Notes under the pieces: generated by a model | Told to the model about the DNA's origin: nothing | Database searches by the model: none | Seen by the model: only the letters and a program-made list of their open reading frames with translations | Position numbers and translations under genes: made by a program | Part shown: in pieces, positions 45,078 through 55,034 of the stretch | Layout: each line of letters begins with the position of its first letter | Numbering within the stretch: the stretch's first letter is position 1 | Assembly: GCA_903926075.1 (NCBI GenBank) | Contig: CAIYHQ010000034.1 | Coordinates: 1 to 64,000 of the forward strand | Direction of reading: 5' to 3' | Source: an uncultured Methanomicrobiales archaeon | GTDB lineage: Archaea > Halobacteriota > Methanomicrobia > Methanomicrobiales > Methanospirillaceae | Length of the DNA: 64,000 nt

Positions 45078-45491
45078 TTAAGTTTGTTTATTAATATTAA
45101 CTGTTTTAATGAGATAATAAGACACTGCAAGTGCGATAATTATAATGCCTATCCCTATCATTTCAGTTTCATTGCCCCCGGCGAGATCCAATAAAATTAC
45201 TTTTCGTGCAACTGCAATTATTGCGAGGAGGACAATAATCTCAACATGGATCTCACGCTGAGTAATATATGCCTTAATCGAATCTAAAAGTTCAATTCCG
45301 ATTATTACAAGAAGAAAATACCCAAAAAGAGTTAACATCTCCGAATTGGTTAATTCAAAAACCGAATTTACAACCACAGACTGGAACAGCATATAGATAA
45401 GTTCAATTACTGAAAAACCTATCATTACTGCAAGGAGGCAAATCAGGACGTAATAAATGATTTTTTCATATATTTCAAGGTACTTGAACAT
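45078..45491 (-). CDS. PsiE-family membrane protein
   Basis: The 137-residue protein has four hydrophobic segments (about 12-40, 55-75, 85-100, 112-130) and resembles PsiE (phosphate-starvation-inducible E): IELLDSIKAYITQREIHVEIIVLLAIIAVARKVILLD, seen as the blocks LLDSIKAYI and REIHVEIIVLLAIIAVARK. The biochemical function of PsiE is unknown. Its nearness to the PitA/DUF47 genes is suggestive of a phosphate link. It may be co-transcribed with the downstream receiver-PocR gene. Confidence 0.8.
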   Translation of the reverse strand: MFKYLEIYEKIIYYVLICLLAVMIGFSVIELIYMLFQSVVVNSVFELTNSEMLTLFGYFLLVIIGIELLDSIKAYITQREIHVEIIVLLAIIAVARKVILLDLAGGNETEMIGIGIIIIALAVSYYLIKTVNINKQT

Positions 45492-45628
45492 TTAATTGCC
45501 TAATTATTGTTGGGATGAATCTACTAATAATGAATCGGATCTCTTCTCGCCTTCATATAAACCCTTTGAGCACTAGTCAAAATGTCCAGATGAAAATACA
45601 TATTATCCGGAAAAGCGAAATGCTATTT

Positions 45629-46186
45629 ATGAAAACATTGCCACGTATTGTAATCAGTACACTTGTTTTTTTTACACTAATCTTAAGTGTTCAGGTTTTG
45701 GGCTACTCCGCTTTTCAGGTAAGTGAAAACGCGACAACCCCTCAAACAGTCACATTTGCACTCATTTCAACTCCACCTTCCGGAAGTAGTGTCACCTCTA
45801 TCCACTATGATTTTGGCGATGGTACGAGTTCCTCTAAAGAAAGTCCTGTACATGTATATGCAAAACCCGGAAAATATTCACCTTCACTAACAATTGTCTG
45901 GTCAGACAGTGTAGGTAATATTTACACCACGAAGACGACCATGACTCTTGTAATAGGGAATGTAATTGTACCTCCAAGTTTATCACCAATAAAAACAATC
46001 GCCCCAACATTAATTGTTACTCCAGGTTTAGTAGCAATGCCCCACTATGTAGCTACACCATACCGGACATTCAGTTCGCTTCCTACAAACCTTACGCCAC
46101 TTACCAGGTCATATCCAGCTGTAACGTTTCCCGAAATGAATTATGAAACACCAAACCTTAACCTGACATCCAATGGCATTCTCTAA
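45629..46186 (+). CDS. Secreted PKD-domain protein
   Basis: The protein has an N-terminal signal segment (KTLPRIVISTLVFFTLILSV) when started at ATG 45629, and a PKD domain (about residues 35-115 of that form) with the hallmark SIHYDFGDGTSSSKESPVHVYAKPG (seen as YDFGDGTSS). A proline-, serine- and threonine-rich tail follows. PKD domains mediate protein-protein contacts at the archaeal cell surface. The open frame extends upstream to 45515, but that part contains no signal-like start, so I prefer 45629. There is no C-terminal anchor. Confidence 0.7.
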   Translation: MKTLPRIVISTLVFFTLILSVQVLGYSAFQVSENATTPQTVTFALISTPPSGSSVTSIHYDFGDGTSSSKESPVHVYAKPGKYSPSLTIVWSDSVGNIYTTKTTMTLVIGNVIVPPSLSPIKTIAPTLIVTPGLVAMPHYVATPYRTFSSLPTNLTPLTRSYPAVTFPEMNYETPNLNLTSNGIL

Positions 46187-47052: not shown

Positions 47053-47155
47053 TGACTTTGTCTATTGAAATAATTCCCTCTGTGAATAACCATTTTTAAA
47101 TCCTGATAATAGATATAAATTTTTTTAGGATAACAACGCTAACGGTAAGGTACAT

Positions 47156-48868
47156 ATGAATTCGTATTTGAAGCATCTTTTTTATTTCATCACAATTATT
47201 CTCGTCACCCTTTGCATTGCTTCATTTACGGTTATTGGAAGTGTGAATAAAAATATCACTGACGTATCTATTGATACACCCACCATTAATTCATCAGTTA
47301 CGCAGGAATTGCAAAATTCATTAACAACAAAAAACTCCTCCTCTTTTACAGATAATACACCAACAGACACAATTCAGCCAACCGAAATCCCACCTGGGAC
47401 AATTGATCCTGGTAATACTGTCAAAAATTTTCAGACCCTGCCTACCGTGACCCAGTCGGACCTAAATATCATTGAAACAGAAAACCTGACTTTGACTGTA
47501 TCTGAAGTTGATCCAACACGCGAGACCACACTTACACCCGAAGGTGGTAATAATCAATCCTCAATCATTCCAGGCACCCGAAATGCAAATCAGACCACAA
47601 AGGTAAGGACAGTTCCAACTGTACCTTTAAAGCCAAATATAGCCGCAAATGTTACCAAAATCTGGTCCCCTACCCCCATAGCCACCCCAAGTGCAATAAG
47701 ATCAATTATTGTGAATCCAGTTGTTGAAGATGCTACTTACCCTGAAACAACAAAAGACCTGGCTGATTTAGCCAATAATTACATTACCCAGACTGAAAAA
47801 AGTCCAGATTTATGGACAATCGAGCCCGAAACTCCAACGGCTATAGAGACAATCAGTAACCTTACAGATCCCGATGTCTGGTATGACCGTGGCCTCCTTC
47901 TCGAGAAGGAAGGAAAGTATGAAGAAGCAATTTTAGCTTACGACAATGCACTGGCTATCGACCCTGCTTATGTTGAGGCATGGTTCCAGAAAGGGTTGAC
48001 ACTTGAAAAACTGGGCAGAGATGACGAAGCTCTCATAGCCTATAATACAACGCTTGATCTTAACCCTCTCTATAAAGGGGCTCTTGATAACCGGAATCTT
48101 CTTATGAAGAATCTGATTGCAGTACAGACGACAATAAGTAGCAATCTTACCAGTTCAAATGAGTCTGCCGGAGACGAAGGTGGATATCCATGGATTTATC
48201 TGGTTTTTGGTGGTGTCTCGGTTGGTATCTTCCTTGCTCTCCTTATTCTCCTTAAATTTGGTATAGGGAGCGGAAATGTTTATAAAAAACCGTCATTGGA
48301 AAAAACCAGAGGTAAGTATACAGAATACGAGACCAGGGAAAAGAGCTCCTCATATATTAGAGAACCCAGAAAGATCGATATTTATGAGATAAAGAACGAG
48401 ATACTCACAGATTCAACTGTTGATCCCAAAGTGTTTGAAAATGTTCTTACAATTGCAATTGAACTTGGACGTGAAGGGAGAGAAGGGAAATCAGTCGGGA
48501 CTTCATTTATTATTGGCGACTCTGAAAATGTACTTCTGAAATCCAAACAACTTATTTTGAATCCTTTTGAGGGCCATCATAAAGCTAAAAGGTCTATCCA
48601 TAAAGGAGACCTAAAAGAAAATATCAAGGAACTGGCTCAGCTTGATGGTGCATTTGTGATAAGCGATGATGGCACTGTCGAAGCGGCCGGGCGATATATT
48701 ACAATAGATACATCAGATGTGAAATTACCTCGTGGTTTTGGCACACGACATGCATCGATTGCCGCGATATCGAAAGCAACAAAAGCAATAGGAATTGTTC
48801 TTTCTCAAAGTGGTGGAACTATCTCTATATTTAAAGATGGAGAGATGAAGAAAAAAATCAGGTATTAA
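47156..48868 (+). CDS. Membrane TPR protein with diadenylate cyclase (DisA_N/DAC) domain
   Basis: The 570-residue protein has an N-terminal membrane segment (about 9-29), a Thr/Ser/Pro-rich stretch with NxS/T sites (30-235), two TPR units (about 240-310: WYDRGLLLEKEGKYEEAILAYD), a second membrane segment (about 345-367) and a C-terminal DAC domain (about 410-570). The DAC hallmarks are VGTSFIIGD, NPFEGH, D497-G-A and G529-T-R-H. The third position of the usual RHR motif is Ala (A533). DAC enzymes condense two ATP to c-di-AMP. The predicted topology puts TPRs outside and the cyclase inside, so it may be a surface receptor controlling c-di-AMP, a regulator of osmolyte and potassium balance. Topology and activity are inferred. 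Confidence 0.82.
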   Translation: MNSYLKHLFYFITIILVTLCIASFTVIGSVNKNITDVSIDTPTINSSVTQELQNSLTTKNSSSFTDNTPTDTIQPTEIPPGTIDPGNTVKNFQTLPTVTQSDLNIIETENLTLTVSEVDPTRETTLTPEGGNNQSSIIPGTRNANQTTKVRTVPTVPLKPNIAANVTKIWSPTPIATPSAIRSIIVNPVVEDATYPETTKDLADLANNYITQTEKSPDLWTIEPETPTAIETISNLTDPDVWYDRGLLLEKEGKYEEAILAYDNALAIDPAYVEAWFQKGLTLEKLGRDDEALIAYNTTLDLNPLYKGALDNRNLLMKNLIAVQTTISSNLTSSNESAGDEGGYPWIYLVFGGVSVGIFLALLILLKFGIGSGNVYKKPSLEKTRGKYTEYETREKSSSYIREPRKIDIYEIKNEILTDSTVDPKVFENVLTIAIELGREGREGKSVGTSFIIGDSENVLLKSKQLILNPFEGHHKAKRSIHKGDLKENIKELAQLDGAFVISDDGTVEAAGRYITIDTSDVKLPRGFGTRHASIAAISKATKAIGIVLSQSGGTISIFKDGEMKKKIRY

Positions 48869-48878
48869 CTGAAAGTAT

Positions 48879-51800
48879 TTATTTTAATTTGAATTTCCCG
48901 ACCATCTCGCGCAATTTAACTGCCATTTCACGAATTTCAGTTGCAGCGCTTGCAACCTCCTCAGTGGATGCACTTGACTCTTCAGCAAGTGCAGCAAGGT
49001 CCGACATATTTTTCTCGCTCGTGAGTATAAGATTATTGACTTTTTCAATACTAATTGTGACATTATTCGTGGCTTTAGCCTGGTCACCCGTAGTTTCTGA
49101 GATATCAGCAATATTTTTGTTCGAGACTTCCAGGTCCTTCATTATCAGGTTGATTGAGGATATAGTACTATTGACCATCTCGATTCCGGATATTATCTCA
49201 TTATACGCCTGCTTCATTGATGCAGCAGTTTTTTCACTTTCATCCGTGATCCCCTGTATTACACCCTCAATATTTCTTGTTGCTTCTTTTGCTTCTCCAG
49301 CAAGGGACCTTACTTCACCGGCAACAACTGCAAAACCCCTCCCATGTTCTCCTGCACGAGCCGCTTCGATTGCCGCATTTAGTGCAAGAAGATTGGTCTG
49401 ATTTGCAATATCTGTGATAAGTTTCACAATATTGCCTATCTCCTGAGTCTTTTTGTTAAGCAGGGTTATCTCATCTACTGCTTTTCTAGAGATCTCCTCT
49501 ACAACTTTCATCTTAGCACCGGCTTCATTTCCTCTCTTTGAGGCATCATTTCCGGCATTGACTACATTGACCGATAGTTCCCTGACTTCATGCGTAGTGC
49601 TTGCAATCTCTTCAATGGACGCAGAGAGGTCTGAAACCTCCTTCATGACTGTTTCGAGCTGATCCTTCTGGACCCTTACATCACTCGATGTTCCCTGTGC
49701 AGTGGATGCCACAGACTGGGATGCTTTTGCAAGTTCTTCACTACCTTTTCCGATTTCAATTATTCCTCGTTCAACAGATTCTGCCTGACTCAAAATTTGT
49801 TGCAGGATATCTTTTAATTCCCTAATAGTTGCATTATTGTCCTGCTTTACTTTCAGTAGGGGATCTCCATCGTAAGTAACAGCTGGGTTAGTAAGGTCAC
49901 CTGCAGCAATTGACGCTAGACTTTCTGCGAGTTCGTTTATGCTTTTATTCAAATTCTCTTCTTGTTTGCGGGAGGCAGTTACATCATTATAAACGGTAAG
50001 AACCTTTGTAAGGGCGCCTTGTTGATCGAAGAGTGGAATATTATATTGTTCAACACTCAACTCACCATTGGGAAACTGGATAACCGCTTCACCATATGTC
50101 CTTACCTTTTTCTGTATTGCTTCTCTAATTCCTTCACCGCTTTCTTTTTTATAATTAATGCTCTGAATTGTGAGATTGTTGGCCCCGCTCTCGGTGAAAC
50201 CTGTGACTTTTATAAATTCGTCATTAAACTGGAGGACTCGTCCATCATAGGACCAGATAAGAATAGGCATAGGATTCTCTTTTATAATGGATTCAGTCTC
50301 TTTCTGGAGAACCACCACCTCTTTTATCCTCTTTTTAAATTCTGTCATGTCAAGCCAGATATAATAGGCATTTTCGACATCACCATTTTCATCAAGTATT
50401 GGAATAGAATAAAGGGTTAAGAAAGCTTTTTCACCATTCTTAAAAGTAACAATTGTCTCAGTTGTCGTCCTTTTTTTTGTTTTAAAACAGTTAAATAATT
50501 CATCTCCCGATTGAATTTTAATATCGTACGAAGATAACGGCCTCCGCATCAGTTCCTCTTTTTTTCCTTTCCAGAGGAGTTCATATTGGGGGTTGATATC
50601 GATAATAGATTTATCTTTTCCAATAATCCCGATTGCAAGTGGGTTTTCCTGAATGAATATTTCAGCTCTTTTCTGGAGAGACGAAATATCTTTTATCTTT
50701 TGAAGTATCTCCCGGTCTTTCGCTTTTTTTTCTGTTATATCATTATAGACTGACATGATATTCACTATCATGCCATCCTTATCCAGGAGTGGAATAGTAT
50801 GTTGCTCAAGATTATGGACTCCGGTTGGAAATTCGACGATAATTTCACCAGTTACTCCGGTCCGTGTCGTAATTGCTTCTCTTAGCATATGTCCTTTTTT
50901 GTCAAGTATTTTGAACTCTTTTGCACTCATTGTCAGGATTTGTTTTTCTTTATACCCGGAAAGGTTGATGAAAGCATAGTTCGCTAGCTGGATTTTTAGA
51001 TCAGTGTCCATAAGAAGAATTGGAAGTGGATTTTGTTGTACCATCGTCAATGTATGCTGTTGCAAACGTTCAATCTCTTCCATTTGAGTGTGTATTGATG
51101 ATTCTGCATTCTTTCTCATGGTGATATCACGGACAACTGTGAGAATGAATGCTCCATTCAATAATTCAATTGGTGAAAGGCTGACTTCGCTATAGAAAAC
51201 TTCATTATTTAACCGAATAAACTCAAAATCAAAACTTTCGGGTCTGCCTGGTTTTACAGAATTTATCCTATTAATTAGGTAACTCTTATTATCTTTTTCT
51301 TTTGAAGGAATATGAGGTATAAATTCGGTAAGTTCCCTCCCTATCAATTCAGTTTTATTAGCGAGACCAAACAGTTTTACCGTTTTTTCATTACATTCGT
51401 CAATACAAGTGCCTGAAAGGAGGATTATTGCGTCATTAGAGCCCTCAAATATTAGCCTGAATTTTTTCTCTTCATCAATTAGCAGCGCCTCATCACGTTT
51501 TTGTGTCTTTCTAATCTGAAATTCCCGGGTCTCACGCTCAACTGCAGGAATAAGCCTTGAATATTTCCCCTTTAGAATAAAATCGTGAGCACCAGCCTTC
51601 ATTACTTCGACTGCGGTCTCCTCACCAATGACTCCTGATATAATGATAAAAGGGATATCCAGGCCTAGCTCCTGAACCGTTTTTAAAGCATTAAGCCCTC
51701 CATAATTTGGAATAGAATAGTCTGAAATAATAATATCCCAGTCATTTTCAGATAGTTTCTTCCGGAGGTCCCTGTCAGTTTCAACCTGGACTGCAGTTAT

Positions 51801-51890
51801 CCGGTACCCACTTTTTTCGAGTTCGTACTGTATTAGAAGTGCATCGTCGGGAGAATCCTCAACAATCAGTACTTTTAGTTCAGAATCCAT
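48879..51890 (-). CDS. Soluble methyl-accepting-chemotaxis-type protein with receiver and PAS domains
   Basis: The 1003-residue protein carries a receiver (1-125; D57 in ISDYSIPNYGG), four PAS-like domains (about 145-265, 285-390, 400-510, 530-640; several with NPLPILLMD or NPMPILIWS openings), a short HAMP-like link, and a C-terminal MCP signalling helix pair. The MCP tip is canonical: ANQTNLLALNAAIEAARAGE and GRGFAVVAGEVRSLA. There are no membrane segments, so it is cytoplasmic. No cheA, cheW or other chemotaxis genes lie in the window. The receiver lets a histidine kinase feed into a chemoreceptor array, an unusual arrangement. Confidence 0.88.
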   Translation of the reverse strand: MDSELKVLIVEDSPDDALLIQYELEKSGYRITAVQVETDRDLRKKLSENDWDIIISDYSIPNYGGLNALKTVQELGLDIPFIIISGVIGEETAVEVMKAGAHDFILKGKYSRLIPAVERETREFQIRKTQKRDEALLIDEEKKFRLIFEGSNDAIILLSGTCIDECNEKTVKLFGLANKTELIGRELTEFIPHIPSKEKDNKSYLINRINSVKPGRPESFDFEFIRLNNEVFYSEVSLSPIELLNGAFILTVVRDITMRKNAESSIHTQMEEIERLQQHTLTMVQQNPLPILLMDTDLKIQLANYAFINLSGYKEKQILTMSAKEFKILDKKGHMLREAITTRTGVTGEIIVEFPTGVHNLEQHTIPLLDKDGMIVNIMSVYNDITEKKAKDREILQKIKDISSLQKRAEIFIQENPLAIGIIGKDKSIIDINPQYELLWKGKKEELMRRPLSSYDIKIQSGDELFNCFKTKKRTTTETIVTFKNGEKAFLTLYSIPILDENGDVENAYYIWLDMTEFKKRIKEVVVLQKETESIIKENPMPILIWSYDGRVLQFNDEFIKVTGFTESGANNLTIQSINYKKESGEGIREAIQKKVRTYGEAVIQFPNGELSVEQYNIPLFDQQGALTKVLTVYNDVTASRKQEENLNKSINELAESLASIAAGDLTNPAVTYDGDPLLKVKQDNNATIRELKDILQQILSQAESVERGIIEIGKGSEELAKASQSVASTAQGTSSDVRVQKDQLETVMKEVSDLSASIEEIASTTHEVRELSVNVVNAGNDASKRGNEAGAKMKVVEEISRKAVDEITLLNKKTQEIGNIVKLITDIANQTNLLALNAAIEAARAGEHGRGFAVVAGEVRSLAGEAKEATRNIEGVIQGITDESEKTAASMKQAYNEIISGIEMVNSTISSINLIMKDLEVSNKNIADISETTGDQAKATNNVTISIEKVNNLILTSEKNMSDLAALAEESSASTEEVASAATEIREMAVKLREMVGKFKLK

Positions 51891-51974: not shown

Positions 51975-53099
51975 CTACTCACCAAGCGTGAATGAAAAAC
52001 AGGCACCTCTACCGGGCTCACTTTCAGCTTTTATTGTGCCTCCAAACCTTGTAATTATTCGCTTTACGGTAGCTAGGCCAATTCCGGTTCCAGGGAATTC
52101 TGTTTCAGTATGGTACCTCTTGAAAGGGACATAAAGTTGTTCAGCATTGCTCGCCTTAAACCCTGCACCATTGTCCCTGATAAAAAAAATCTTTTTCTTT
52201 CCGTCGTTCAGTATTGTTCCAAATTCAATTTCTGCATTTTGCGTTTTTTTTGTATATTTCCATGCATTATCCAGGAGGTTTTGAAACAATATTGCGAGAA
52301 GTGCCCTGTCACCTCTGCCAAAAACACCCTCGGCAACTTTGCATTTCACTACCCTGTCCTGTTCATGATTTTTCAGGTCATCAAGAATTCCCTTGACCAT
52401 TTTAGTGAGGTTTACCTCTTCAACAGTAATCTCTAACCGATTTACACGGGATAACCTAAGGAGGTCCTCGATTAATTCCTGCATTCTTGCTGATGATGAA
52501 AGAATCCTCTCTACATACTCTGTCGCCCTGGTGCTCATTTCAGCACTACACTTCTCAAGAAGCATCCTTCCAAAACCTTCGATTATCCGCAGAGGGGCAC
52601 GAAGGTCATGAGAAACTGAATAGCAGAATGCCTCAAGTTCCTTATTAGTCTCTTCAAGCTTTGTCCCCTGCTCCTCGAGGAGACGAAGAATTGAGTTTTT
52701 TTCGGTAATTTCAATAGCAGATCTAGATATGCAGGATTTCCCCCCATTCTGGTCTGCTGAAGTAACATTTTTGATTATTGACCCTAGTTTTTCTTTCTCG
52801 TTTGAAAGTAGATAATCAAATACGCCGGCACGGAAGTATTCAAGTATTTTTTTAGAATCATCAGTACCTGAGAATATAATTGAGGGATATGCCTGAATAA
52901 AAGCCTTTAATCCAATGTTAGGCACTGACGGACAGATACGGGCATCGAGTAGACACCAATCAGGTTTAATTTCAAAATTATTGTTATTAATGGAATCAAA
53001 TTGAATGATGTTAATATAACCTGTATTTGTGAGTAATACCTTCAGGTCTTTAAGTACACTTTCATCATTCGTAAAAATAGCAATGACAGGTTCTCGCAT
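51975..53099 (-). CDS. Sensor histidine kinase with degenerate receiver
   Basis: The N-terminal 115 residues look like a receiver fold with a candidate D52 (LLDARI), but the usual acidic pair is altered (NDES) and the conserved Lys-Pro is lost. A coiled linker leads to HisKA with H164 in SVSHDLRAPLRIIEGF and an HATPase with NLLDNAWKYTKK, DNGAGF and GTGIGLATVKRII. This kinase class resembles phytochrome-type and cyanobacterial kinases. It sits 84 bases upstream of the receiver-MCP gene on the same strand, making that receiver a likely target. Length 374 residues, soluble. Confidence 0.87.
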   Translation of the reverse strand: MREPVIAIFTNDESVLKDLKVLLTNTGYINIIQFDSINNNNFEIKPDWCLLDARICPSVPNIGLKAFIQAYPSIIFSGTDDSKKILEYFRAGVFDYLLSNEKEKLGSIIKNVTSADQNGGKSCISRSAIEITEKNSILRLLEEQGTKLEETNKELEAFCYSVSHDLRAPLRIIEGFGRMLLEKCSAEMSTRATEYVERILSSSARMQELIEDLLRLSRVNRLEITVEEVNLTKMVKGILDDLKNHEQDRVVKCKVAEGVFGRGDRALLAILFQNLLDNAWKYTKKTQNAEIEFGTILNDGKKKIFFIRDNGAGFKASNAEQLYVPFKRYHTETEFPGTGIGLATVKRIITRFGGTIKAESEPGRGACFSFTLGE

Positions 53100-53187: not shown

Positions 53188-54429
53188 ATGAGTTTTTGGT
53201 TGAATAATAATTATATAATGAAAATATCTCTTATTCTCGCCTTCCTCCTAATAATTGGACTTTTGTTTTCTGGTTGTACAAAACAACAGAGTGAGCCAGT
53301 TCAATTGAATAATAGTGTACAAGTGAATGTTTTAAATCAGTCAACACAATTCAAATCCGATAATGTGAGTTCAATTCTTAAAATGAGCCCAGAGGCGGCA
53401 GTCCTTTATAAAAATGGAAAAGAATATTCAAGTAAGGGTAATTATCGAAAGGCAATTAATGAGTATGAGATAGCTCTCGATATCGATCCATCCAATCCAG
53501 TTCTATTCTATGAATCCGGGCGTTCTTATGAATCGCTAAAACAGTACGATATGGCGCTTGAACTTTATAATCAGGGATTAAAATTTTCACAGGATAATCC
53601 AGATTTATGGGAAAGAAAGGGAATTGTACTTGAAGCGCTTAATTTATCGGGTTATGTGGATGCTTACAAAAAAGCGGTTTCAATAAATAAATCTATGACT
53701 TACTCGTGGTTCAGGATTGGCATTTTTGAAATGGATGGAAAGGACTATCGGAATGCATCAGCTGCATTTGGAATTGTTATAATGAATGAACCTGAAAATG
53801 CACAAGGATATCTCGAGAAGGGGCTCGCTACCCTGGAACTTGGAGATGTCAATGAGTCCGTTGCAATTCTCAAAAAAGCAGTATCATTAAAGCCAAATGA
53901 CCCATTGTATTTGAAAAATTTCGGTCGTTCACTATTACTTGAAGGAAATCTGGCGGAAGCACTGAAAAATTATGACCTTGCCCTGAAATATGTGACTTCC
54001 AAAGAAGAAGAGGGAGAGGTTCTTTATTTGAAAAGCATTGCTTTGGATATGACGGGAGATAAAGAGGGAGCCTATGCATCAATTGTGAATGCAACCACAC
54101 TTAATAGTTCTGATTTAAATTCATGGTATGAAAGAGCTGAACTTGCATCCATAACTGGGAGAAAGAATGATGCCATACTATCATATAACGAGGTTTCAAA
54201 AATTTCACCCCAGGACCCGAAATCTTGGTACCGACGTGGTGTCCTCCTCCAGGATGTTGGAGATTATACTGGTGCAATTCAGGCATTTGATAATGTTATA
54301 TCAATAGACCCCTCAATTGGAAAAGCCTGGTATAGGAAAGGAATGATTTTAAACAGTCTTGGCAAATATGATGAAGCGAGAGTGTGTTTTGACAGGTCAC
54401 AATCATCAAAAAATCAGGAGGAATTATAA
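53188..54429 (+). CDS. TPR-repeat lipoprotein
   Basis: The 413-residue protein has a lipoprotein signal with lipobox LLFSGC (C about residue 30), a low-complexity linker and about nine to ten TPR units across the rest (for example YDMALELYNQGLKFSQDNPDLW and YTGAIQAFDNVISIDPS). It should be tethered outside the membrane and serve as a protein-interaction scaffold. ATG 53188 is supported by AAAGGAAG upstream; the ATG at 53218 (MKISLIL) is an alternative. Its stop overlaps the start of the next lipoprotein gene by one base, so the two are co-expressed. Confidence 0.82.
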   Translation: MSFWLNNNYIMKISLILAFLLIIGLLFSGCTKQQSEPVQLNNSVQVNVLNQSTQFKSDNVSSILKMSPEAAVLYKNGKEYSSKGNYRKAINEYEIALDIDPSNPVLFYESGRSYESLKQYDMALELYNQGLKFSQDNPDLWERKGIVLEALNLSGYVDAYKKAVSINKSMTYSWFRIGIFEMDGKDYRNASAAFGIVIMNEPENAQGYLEKGLATLELGDVNESVAILKKAVSLKPNDPLYLKNFGRSLLLEGNLAEALKNYDLALKYVTSKEEEGEVLYLKSIALDMTGDKEGAYASIVNATTLNSSDLNSWYERAELASITGRKNDAILSYNEVSKISPQDPKSWYRRGVLLQDVGDYTGAIQAFDNVISIDPSIGKAWYRKGMILNSLGKYDEARVCFDRSQSSKNQEEL

Positions 54430-55034
54430 TGGCAATTAGAACGAAATTTTGTCTCACTTCACTTCTGGGTCTATTTATAGTTATTGCAGTACTAAGTTCA
54501 GGGTGTTCAAATCAGCAAAGGACGAGTGGGCCTGCTACCCTGAACTCTTCGGCTGGCACTACCGGCTGGCCGGAGTATAGTGTTGATATAATAGGCCTTA
54601 AATTCAAATATCCAAGCAATTGGACATTCAGCCCGAATATTAATGCGACAAATCAACTTTTATCGTCAAAAGTATCGGTAACGTTAGCATATATTAGGCC
54701 CCCTTGTGTCGAATGTGATGCTGTTGTTTATGTAAGCACAGACAAACTTCCCTTGGGAATGACAAATGAGCAGTACTATAATGAAAGAAAAAATTACGTC
54801 AAGAAATACTGGAATAATCAGGTAGAAGACCTTCCGGTTTCCACTAGTGGAAATAATGAATTTACCGGAATTTCATATAATTATACAATAAAAGGGAACA
54901 CTACACCTCATAATGCGCGTGAATATATGTATGTAAAAAATGGGACGGCCGTGAGAATTGTGTATGCTGCAGGGATTGATGTATTTAACACATATGAAAG
55001 TGCGTTTAATTCAATTCTTTCAACATTTTCTTAG
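54429..55034 (+). CDS. Small lipoprotein, PsbP/DUF1795-like
   Basis: The 201-residue protein has a lipobox signal (VLSSGC), a linker and a domain (about 50-200) with IGLKFKYPSNWTFSP and a C-terminal helix FNTYESAFNSILSTF, the pattern of PsbP-like lipoproteins. Ten or so NxS/T motifs suggest glycosylation. A CVEC pair is present near residue 95. It is translated from TAATG overlap with the TPR lipoprotein gene, so they probably act together at the outer face of the membrane. Ligand unknown. Confidence 0.72.
   Translation: MAIRTKFCLTSLLGLFIVIAVLSSGCSNQQRTSGPATLNSSAGTTGWPEYSVDIIGLKFKYPSNWTFSPNINATNQLLSSKVSVTLAYIRPPCVECDAVVYVSTDKLPLGMTNEQYYNERKNYVKKYWNNQVEDLPVSTSGNNEFTGISYNYTIKGNTTPHNAREYMYVKNGTAVRIVYAAGIDVFNTYESAFNSILSTFS

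Follow-up and report, generated by a model that had tools for sequence, protein, structure and literature searches.

Domain organization of the predicted cyclase

The gene analysed here is located at positions 47156-48868 on the plus strand of the window, by which the whole stretch of 64,000 nucleotides under study is meant. It specifies 570 amino acids (aa), starts with ATG, contains no internal stop, and resembles the adjoining genes in GC and GC3. A candidate archaeal TATA-like box, GATATAAAT (47112-47120, plus strand), was spotted by eye 36-44 bases 5' of the ATG and suggests that the gene has its own promoter.

An earlier note on this DNA had described the product as a Thr/Ser-rich part with TPRs, a membrane segment and a diadenylate cyclase (DAC) domain, and this order was borne out by Pfam, hydropathy and AlphaFold2 (AF2). 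The first element is a hydrophobic helix, a signal peptide or signal anchor, at aa 3-30 (47162-47245), detected by hydropathy and AF2. It is followed by a predicted disordered extracytoplasmic linker rich in Thr, Ser, Pro and Asn (aa 31-238; 47246-47869; pLDDT and sequons), by two TPRs (aa 239-304) with a capping helix reaching to aa 330 (47870-48145; Pfam, AF2 and structure match), and by a transmembrane (TM) helix at aa 346-369 (48191-48262; hydropathy 2.59 and AF2 helix). The DAC domain (PF02457) covers aa 438-563 (48467-48844; Pfam and structure matches to CdaA/DisA) and includes intact DGA (aa 497-499; 48644-48652) and GTRH motifs (aa 529-532; 48740-48751), both of which had been noted before; the latter is followed by Ala. 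All these elements are read from the plus strand.

Pfam matches were obtained for TPR_1 (6e-16, best stretch aa 239-271), for TPR_16 over aa 243-304, and for PF02457 (E 1.4e-19, 70.3 bits against a cut-off of 27). Hydropathy peaked at aa 9-27 and aa 347-365; for this run, as for the sequon counts below, the open frame starting 9 aa ahead of the ATG was used. AF2, run with 31 sequences comprising the window protein and loci from named genomes, predicted helices at 3-30 and 346-369, with pLDDT values of about 95-97 in the TPRs, above 90 in most of the DAC domain, and below 50 for aa 45-232. Mean pLDDT was 67.4 and pTM 0.43 for the whole protein, so the model does not fix the placement of the domains relative to each other. 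Structural comparisons with VIA-align, made on the top-ranked Foldseek chains, related the C-terminal part to the DisA/CdaA structures 9y4s (Z 15.1, rmsd 2.5 over 131 residues) and 8c4n (Z 14.7, rmsd 2.7 over 130 residues), and aa 239-306 to the consensus TPR 2avp (Z 14.1, rmsd 0.7 over 68). The stretch between the TM helix and the DAC domain comprises 39 residues, mostly of low AF2 confidence, and neither a HAMP domain nor a clear coiled coil was found there in the Pfam scan and the AF2 model.

Occurrence and descent of the TPR-TM-DAC form

Searching the order with PF02457 revealed DAC domains in 219 of 232 genomes; further DAC places of 62 genomes were taken from a second listing. A profile of the TPR form (427 positions), built from eight rows including the window protein, was then run over the 232 genomes. 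The TPR-TM-DAC order was detected in 14 of them, 13 times in full length, with eight of the 14 being rows of the profile. The window gene matched positions 1-426 (1.2e-163), a match by construction, since it is one of these rows. Six genomes outside the profile rows also matched, five over the full length and one, truncated at the end of its contig, from position 215 on; since N-terminal grouping and the tree described below assign it to the TPR forms, it is included among them. All other matches listed were to the TM-DAC or DAC part alone and started at position 202 at the earliest.

The 14 TPR forms are distributed over the genera g1 (that of the window), g3, g6, g8 and g13, all belonging to family f1. 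Outside f1 no TPR form was found by the profile search in the 232 genomes of the order, nor in the class-level search, which also comprised 232 genomes, and a search at E 1e-62 of 392 genomes sampled from the phylum gave no full-length match outside f1. Of 470 relatives in named genomes, the best 80 were considered, a selection that may omit the window's own genome; five of these loci cover the TPRs, all from Methanomicrobiales: Methanospirillum hungatei (two MAGs, L033 and L035), Methanospirillum sp., a Methanomicrobiales MAG, and Candidatus Methanofilum arcanum. In a plasmid collection six records matched, and the five listed are DacZ-like or TPR-only. The search for the same domain order in other methanogens, which had been proposed as a check, was therefore positive. 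As judged from these sequence comparisons, the layout is beyond chance and recurring rather than a lone oddity. The odd mix of domains, and nothing else, would speak for a chance fusion of ORFs or an assembly error. The probability of such an artefact is virtually nil: the frame is free of stops, its GC and GC3 are like those of the neighbours, and the recurrence in 14 genomes and five named loci refutes it.

A tree was computed from 59 DAC domains. It unites 12 of the 14 TPR forms in one clade (100/98). The DACs of the window and of genome G132 are placed at a fork which this tree leaves without resolution; forcing all 14 into one clade costs 2.86 log-likelihood units (p-AU 0.254). The window lineage has a longer linker without the linker motif of its relatives.

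Neighbouring genes

The earlier note had placed the gene upstream of two signalling genes. These are present, one encoding an apparently soluble protein with receiver, PAS and MCPsignal domains (48879-51890) and one a protein with HisKA and HATPase domains (51975-53099), but both are on the minus strand and convergent with the DAC gene, which rules out a partnership as an operon. A layout similar to that of the first, REC-PAS-PAS-HAMP-MCPsignal, is described for Methanosphaerula and Methanospirillum (PMC5847659). Neither gene is conserved beside the TPR-TM-DAC gene in 12 relatives examined, where the sole correspondence is a cluster with receiver-bearing genes that includes one gene of L272. 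Nearby TPR lipoproteins had also been suggested as partners. Among them, TPRs were confirmed for one, 53188-54429; the next gene, 54429-55034, has a lipoprotein-like start.

In the relatives, the surroundings are more uniform. A secreted NosD/beta-helix protein is encoded upstream on the same strand at 11 of the 12 loci (L269-L280), with a small called ORF in between in L275 and L276, and nine of the 12 have a LemA gene of opposite orientation on the far side of the DAC gene, separated from it by two small called ORFs in L271. From its position, the NosD-like protein is a candidate ligand in these relatives. Neither gene is found beside the window gene or beside that of G132. No conserved partner was detected at the window locus, where the upstream Zn-ribbon gene is without counterpart in the 12 relatives. 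A little upstream of this neighbourhood, a PsiE-family membrane protein (45078-45491, minus strand) and a secreted protein with a PKD domain (45515-46186, plus strand) are encoded.

Other DAC layouts in the order

To place the TPR form among its relatives, 183 DAC ORFs from 111 genomes of f1 and its sister family f2 were parsed. Grouping by N-terminal similarity yielded 117 PAS, 28 PKD, 14 TPR, 14 CdaZ and three TrkH forms, and three singletons; four ORFs with too short an N-terminus were left out. The group names are based on Pfam scans of representatives, that of CdaZ mostly on length and branching with archaeal DACs of the CdaZ kind. The singleton layouts are L206, L207 and L123, of which L207 is very divergent (end branch 1.54 in a quick tree). 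Other N-termini are seen in the Methanoperedens DACs L047, L055 and L061, and L075 and L090, which have either a short helical hairpin module (frames of about 251-257 aa) or a longer helical one (456 aa).

The genome of the window contains a second DAC, L002 (1477-3174, minus strand, 565 aa), with a degenerate receiver-PAS-DAC arrangement, the Response_reg score of 26.5 bits being below the cut-off of 30.2. By eye, the phospho-Asp position of the receiver reads S or Y in L002 and in the relatives L006 and L022, and the L002 receiver is therefore likely not phosphorylated. The same genome harbors PF02080 (TrkA_C) in three places and PF02272 (DHHA1) in four, so that, by domain alone, possible targets and hydrolases of c-di-AMP exist.

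Two further layouts combine a DAC with a membrane part. PKD-PKD-TM-DAC proteins are present in 28 of the 111 genomes (for example L143, L162, L173 and L178); some possess a cytoplasmic helical module between TM and DAC, and in L141 this part occurs alone, without PKD. GSRH replaces GTRH in 27 of the 28 DACs of the PKD group. In L181 (501-2561, plus strand), L215 and L241, as well as at the named loci L041 and L066, a TrkH-type K+ uptake subunit and a DAC are joined in one frame, with TrkH at aa 77-480 (1.3e-47) and DAC at aa 551-675 in L181. The TrkH-DACs from three f2 genomes form one clade (98/96). Such a K+ transporter, equipped with a c-di-AMP synthase of its own, would make a striking device for feedback.

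Predicted membrane topology

Between its two helices, the window protein contains 11 N-x-S/T sequons in 319 aa, while shuffled sequences had 5.6 on average and were as high in 13 of 1000 cases; no sequon occurs in the 205 aa that follow the second helix. Three K/R residues are found among the 15 residues after this helix and none among the 15 before it. The distribution of sequons and of positive charges points to TPRs on the outer side of the membrane and a DAC domain on the inner side. Thirteen members have two clear hydrophobic helices; the remaining one is that cut by a contig end. In 12 of these 13, K/R is more frequent after the second helix than before it (exception L010), and in 12 of 13 sequons are more numerous outside than inside (exception L009). 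In most relatives the excess of sequons over shuffled sequences is weak, more than 3% of the shuffles being as high in ten of 13 measured. Taken together, charges and sequons make it likely, as a prediction, that the TPRs are located outside and the DAC domain in the cytoplasm, in agreement with the topology proposed before. An opposite or non-spanning topology with both parts in the cytoplasm would be in line with the fact that TPRs are often cytoplasmic, and the position outside is derived from hydropathy, charges and sequons. Given two clear helices in nearly all members and the recurring bias of both K/R and sequons, such an arrangement appears very unlikely.

Active-site residues and sequence constraint

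For the DAC domain an alignment of 199 sequences was compiled, consisting of 179 of the 183 parsed ORFs, one DacZ from Haladaptatus and 19 others from named genomes. All 199 have the D of DGA as well as the R and H of GxRH. The residue following RH is variable: S in 61, N in 46, A in 40, R in 21, V in 16 and G in three sequences, with others in the remainder. The concern that reading RHA in place of RHR could affect activity was not substantiated. Ala is an ordinary residue at this position, the second Arg occurs in just 21 of 199 related DACs, and the ten active-site residues of CdaA listed in PMC7288161 do not include it, so that a catalytic defect due to RHA can be dismissed. Glu124 of CdaA is a metal ligand according to the same source (PMC7288161). 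At its position the window protein has Ser, a residue shared by 190 of 197 sequences in the alignment, the DacZ of Haladaptatus among them, and catalytic detail should therefore differ from CdaA. For DacZ of H. volcanii, a different protein from the Haladaptatus DacZ compared here, activity with manganese only is reported (PMC6741144).

Nucleotide variation was compared in eight orthologues from g13. Mean pN/pS was 0.13 for DAC, 0.20 for the TPRs, 0.37 for the second TM helix, 0.49 for the linker, 0.62 for the stalk between TM and DAC, and 0.65 for the outer juxtamembrane stretch, values which are rough because pS (0.71-0.77) is near saturation. By these estimates, the TPR and DAC parts are under constraint, the DAC domain most of all.

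Ser at the Glu124 position and Ala for the second Arg could also indicate a weak or dead DAC, kept as a receptor domain that binds c-di-AMP or ATP and signals inside-out to the TPRs. We judge this highly improbable, since both changes are usual in the group and the Haladaptatus DacZ is alike at the Glu position, D, R and H are invariant, the DAC domain is the most constrained part, and it is the sole DAC in one near-complete genome.

A possible one-protein receptor for c-di-AMP signaling

The reading we favour, and consider somewhat probable, is that of a membrane-anchored diadenylate cyclase acting as a one-protein transmembrane receptor. The N-terminal helix would export an Asn/Ser/Thr-rich, probably glycosylated stalk with the two TPRs, and the second helix would cross back, leaving the DAC domain in the cytoplasm. 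The groove of the TPRs may bind a peptide or a surface protein. Binding could alter the packing of two or more receptors, and this change might permit or prevent the face-to-face placement of two DAC domains that the reaction requires. The c-di-AMP produced could act on proteins such as those with TrkA_C (RCK_C) domains, encoded in three places in the genome. The receiver-PAS-PAS-DAC protein L002, with its degenerate receiver, might add a cytoplasmic input to the same messenger.

The poorly conserved stretch between TM and DAC (pN/pS 0.62) does not fit easily into this picture, since it is unusual for a signal-relaying stalk, and the TPRs may serve assembly rather than sensing. The main rival is a membrane-tethered housekeeping cyclase that works constitutively, in which the TPRs would be a module for assembly or localisation, with a surface-layer, sheath or lipoprotein as partner, for example, and would transmit no signal. 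Besides the variable stalk, the lack of a detectable HAMP domain is in line with such a protein. The DAC complement of the 14 genomes bears on this point in both directions. In three, the TPR form is the only DAC found, namely in G129 (99% complete), G141 (85%) and G205 (64%), and in G129 it must therefore supply basal c-di-AMP, if any is made there. The remaining 11 also hold a PAS-type DAC, so a basal supply by the TPR form is not needed in most, and sister layouts bear PAS inputs. A constitutive cyclase thus appears unlikely, though it is the alternative to be taken most seriously, and the receptor cyclase is retained as the best reading.

Archaeal c-di-AMP has been studied mainly via the soluble CdaZ/DacZ. 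The signals that adjust c-di-AMP levels are described as largely unknown (PMC11323494). Against this background we suggest, tentatively and with less confidence than for the receptor itself, that Methanomicrobiales possess a modular sensory network based on c-di-AMP, in which the TPR-TM-DAC protein is a receptor for a cell-surface protein. If true, at least four inputs (receiver/PAS, PKD with TM, TPR with TM, and TrkH) would be connected to related DACs, in parallel to GGDEF domains in bacteria, and c-di-AMP would report the state of surface or envelope and not osmotic state alone. The ligand in Methanospirillum would then perhaps be the co-located secreted beta-helix protein. The predicted extracellular protein-binding part would offer a direct handle, as a ligand can be sought from the cell exterior; moreover, the gene is present in Methanospirillum, which can be cultured. 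With PAS, PKD, TPR and TrkH inputs on related DACs, the order appears a natural one in which to learn how c-di-AMP synthesis is controlled.

Comparison with known cyclases

By fold and motifs, with DGA and G-x-RH present, the window DAC falls in the PF02457 DAC/DisA_N superfamily. The contrast with DacZ (CdaZ), CdaA and DisA drawn in the earlier note held up, the scores being far under the cut-offs of these families. The best NCBIfam DAC match of the window protein was DacZ (NF041371), whose kind is by profile its closest characterised relative, with 135.7 bits over aa 415-564, compared to an equivalog cut-off of 430 bits and 449.8 bits for the Haladaptatus DacZ in the same run. The invariant D, R and H are common to both. 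DacY and CdaZ/DacZ are described with an N-terminal domain like the C-terminal part of pyruvate kinase and without TPR or TM (PMC6741144), whereas the window protein has TM, linker, TPRs and TM in front of its DAC domain, and its N-terminal part groups with the TPR forms, apart from the 14 forms filed as CdaZ.

DisA differs in the DNA-binding part behind its DAC domain, while the window DAC ends at aa 563 of 570 (NF010009, 26 bits versus 201), and CdaS and CdaM are equally distant (NF038328 and NF038327, 18.8 and 23.8 bits versus a cut-off of 225). With CdaA/DacA the window protein shares a membrane-tethered DAC of matching fold, but its score with TIGR00159 (CdaA) was only 28.7 bits versus 188.8. 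CdaA contains three TM helices. In CdaA/DacA the TM helices are N-terminal (PMC6741144), directly before the DAC domain, and there is no extracellular TPR part; the window protein has one before the DAC domain and one at the far N-terminus.

Based on the attached domains, Corrigan and Gruendling (2013) divided archaeal DACs into DacV to DacZ, DacW being exemplified by Q2FM57 of M. hungatei and DacX by A7I8S2 of Methanoregula boonei (PMC6741144). Among the matches listed here, M. hungatei MAGs carry the TPR form (L033, L035) and a PAS-like DAC (L068, L077), and the Methanoregula locus L092 shows a PAS-type N-terminal stretch by eye. Since the TPR form is present in M. hungatei and the Methanoregula locus is of the PAS type, DacW, represented here by its name and example accessions alone, is probably TPR-TM-DAC. 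The words "cyclase" and "DisA" do not occur in the text of the archaeal two-component census (PMC5847659), and no paper describing TPR-TM-DAC or TrkH-DAC was found in a search that excluded most subscription papers, all supplements, and Figure 2C of PMC7288161 on common DAC layouts. The layout probably surfaced in 2013 in the form of a class name; no description of layout, topology or function was found in the literature searched.

Within the order, PKD-TM-DAC and TrkH-DAC proteins likewise have a related DAC behind a membrane input, with PKD or TrkH in place of the TPRs. Many GGDEF diguanylate cyclases are transmembrane proteins. They resemble the TPR-TM-DAC protein in combining an input domain with a cyclase in the cytoplasm whose reaction requires two domains to face each other (PMC7288161), but their catalytic fold and their messenger are unrelated.
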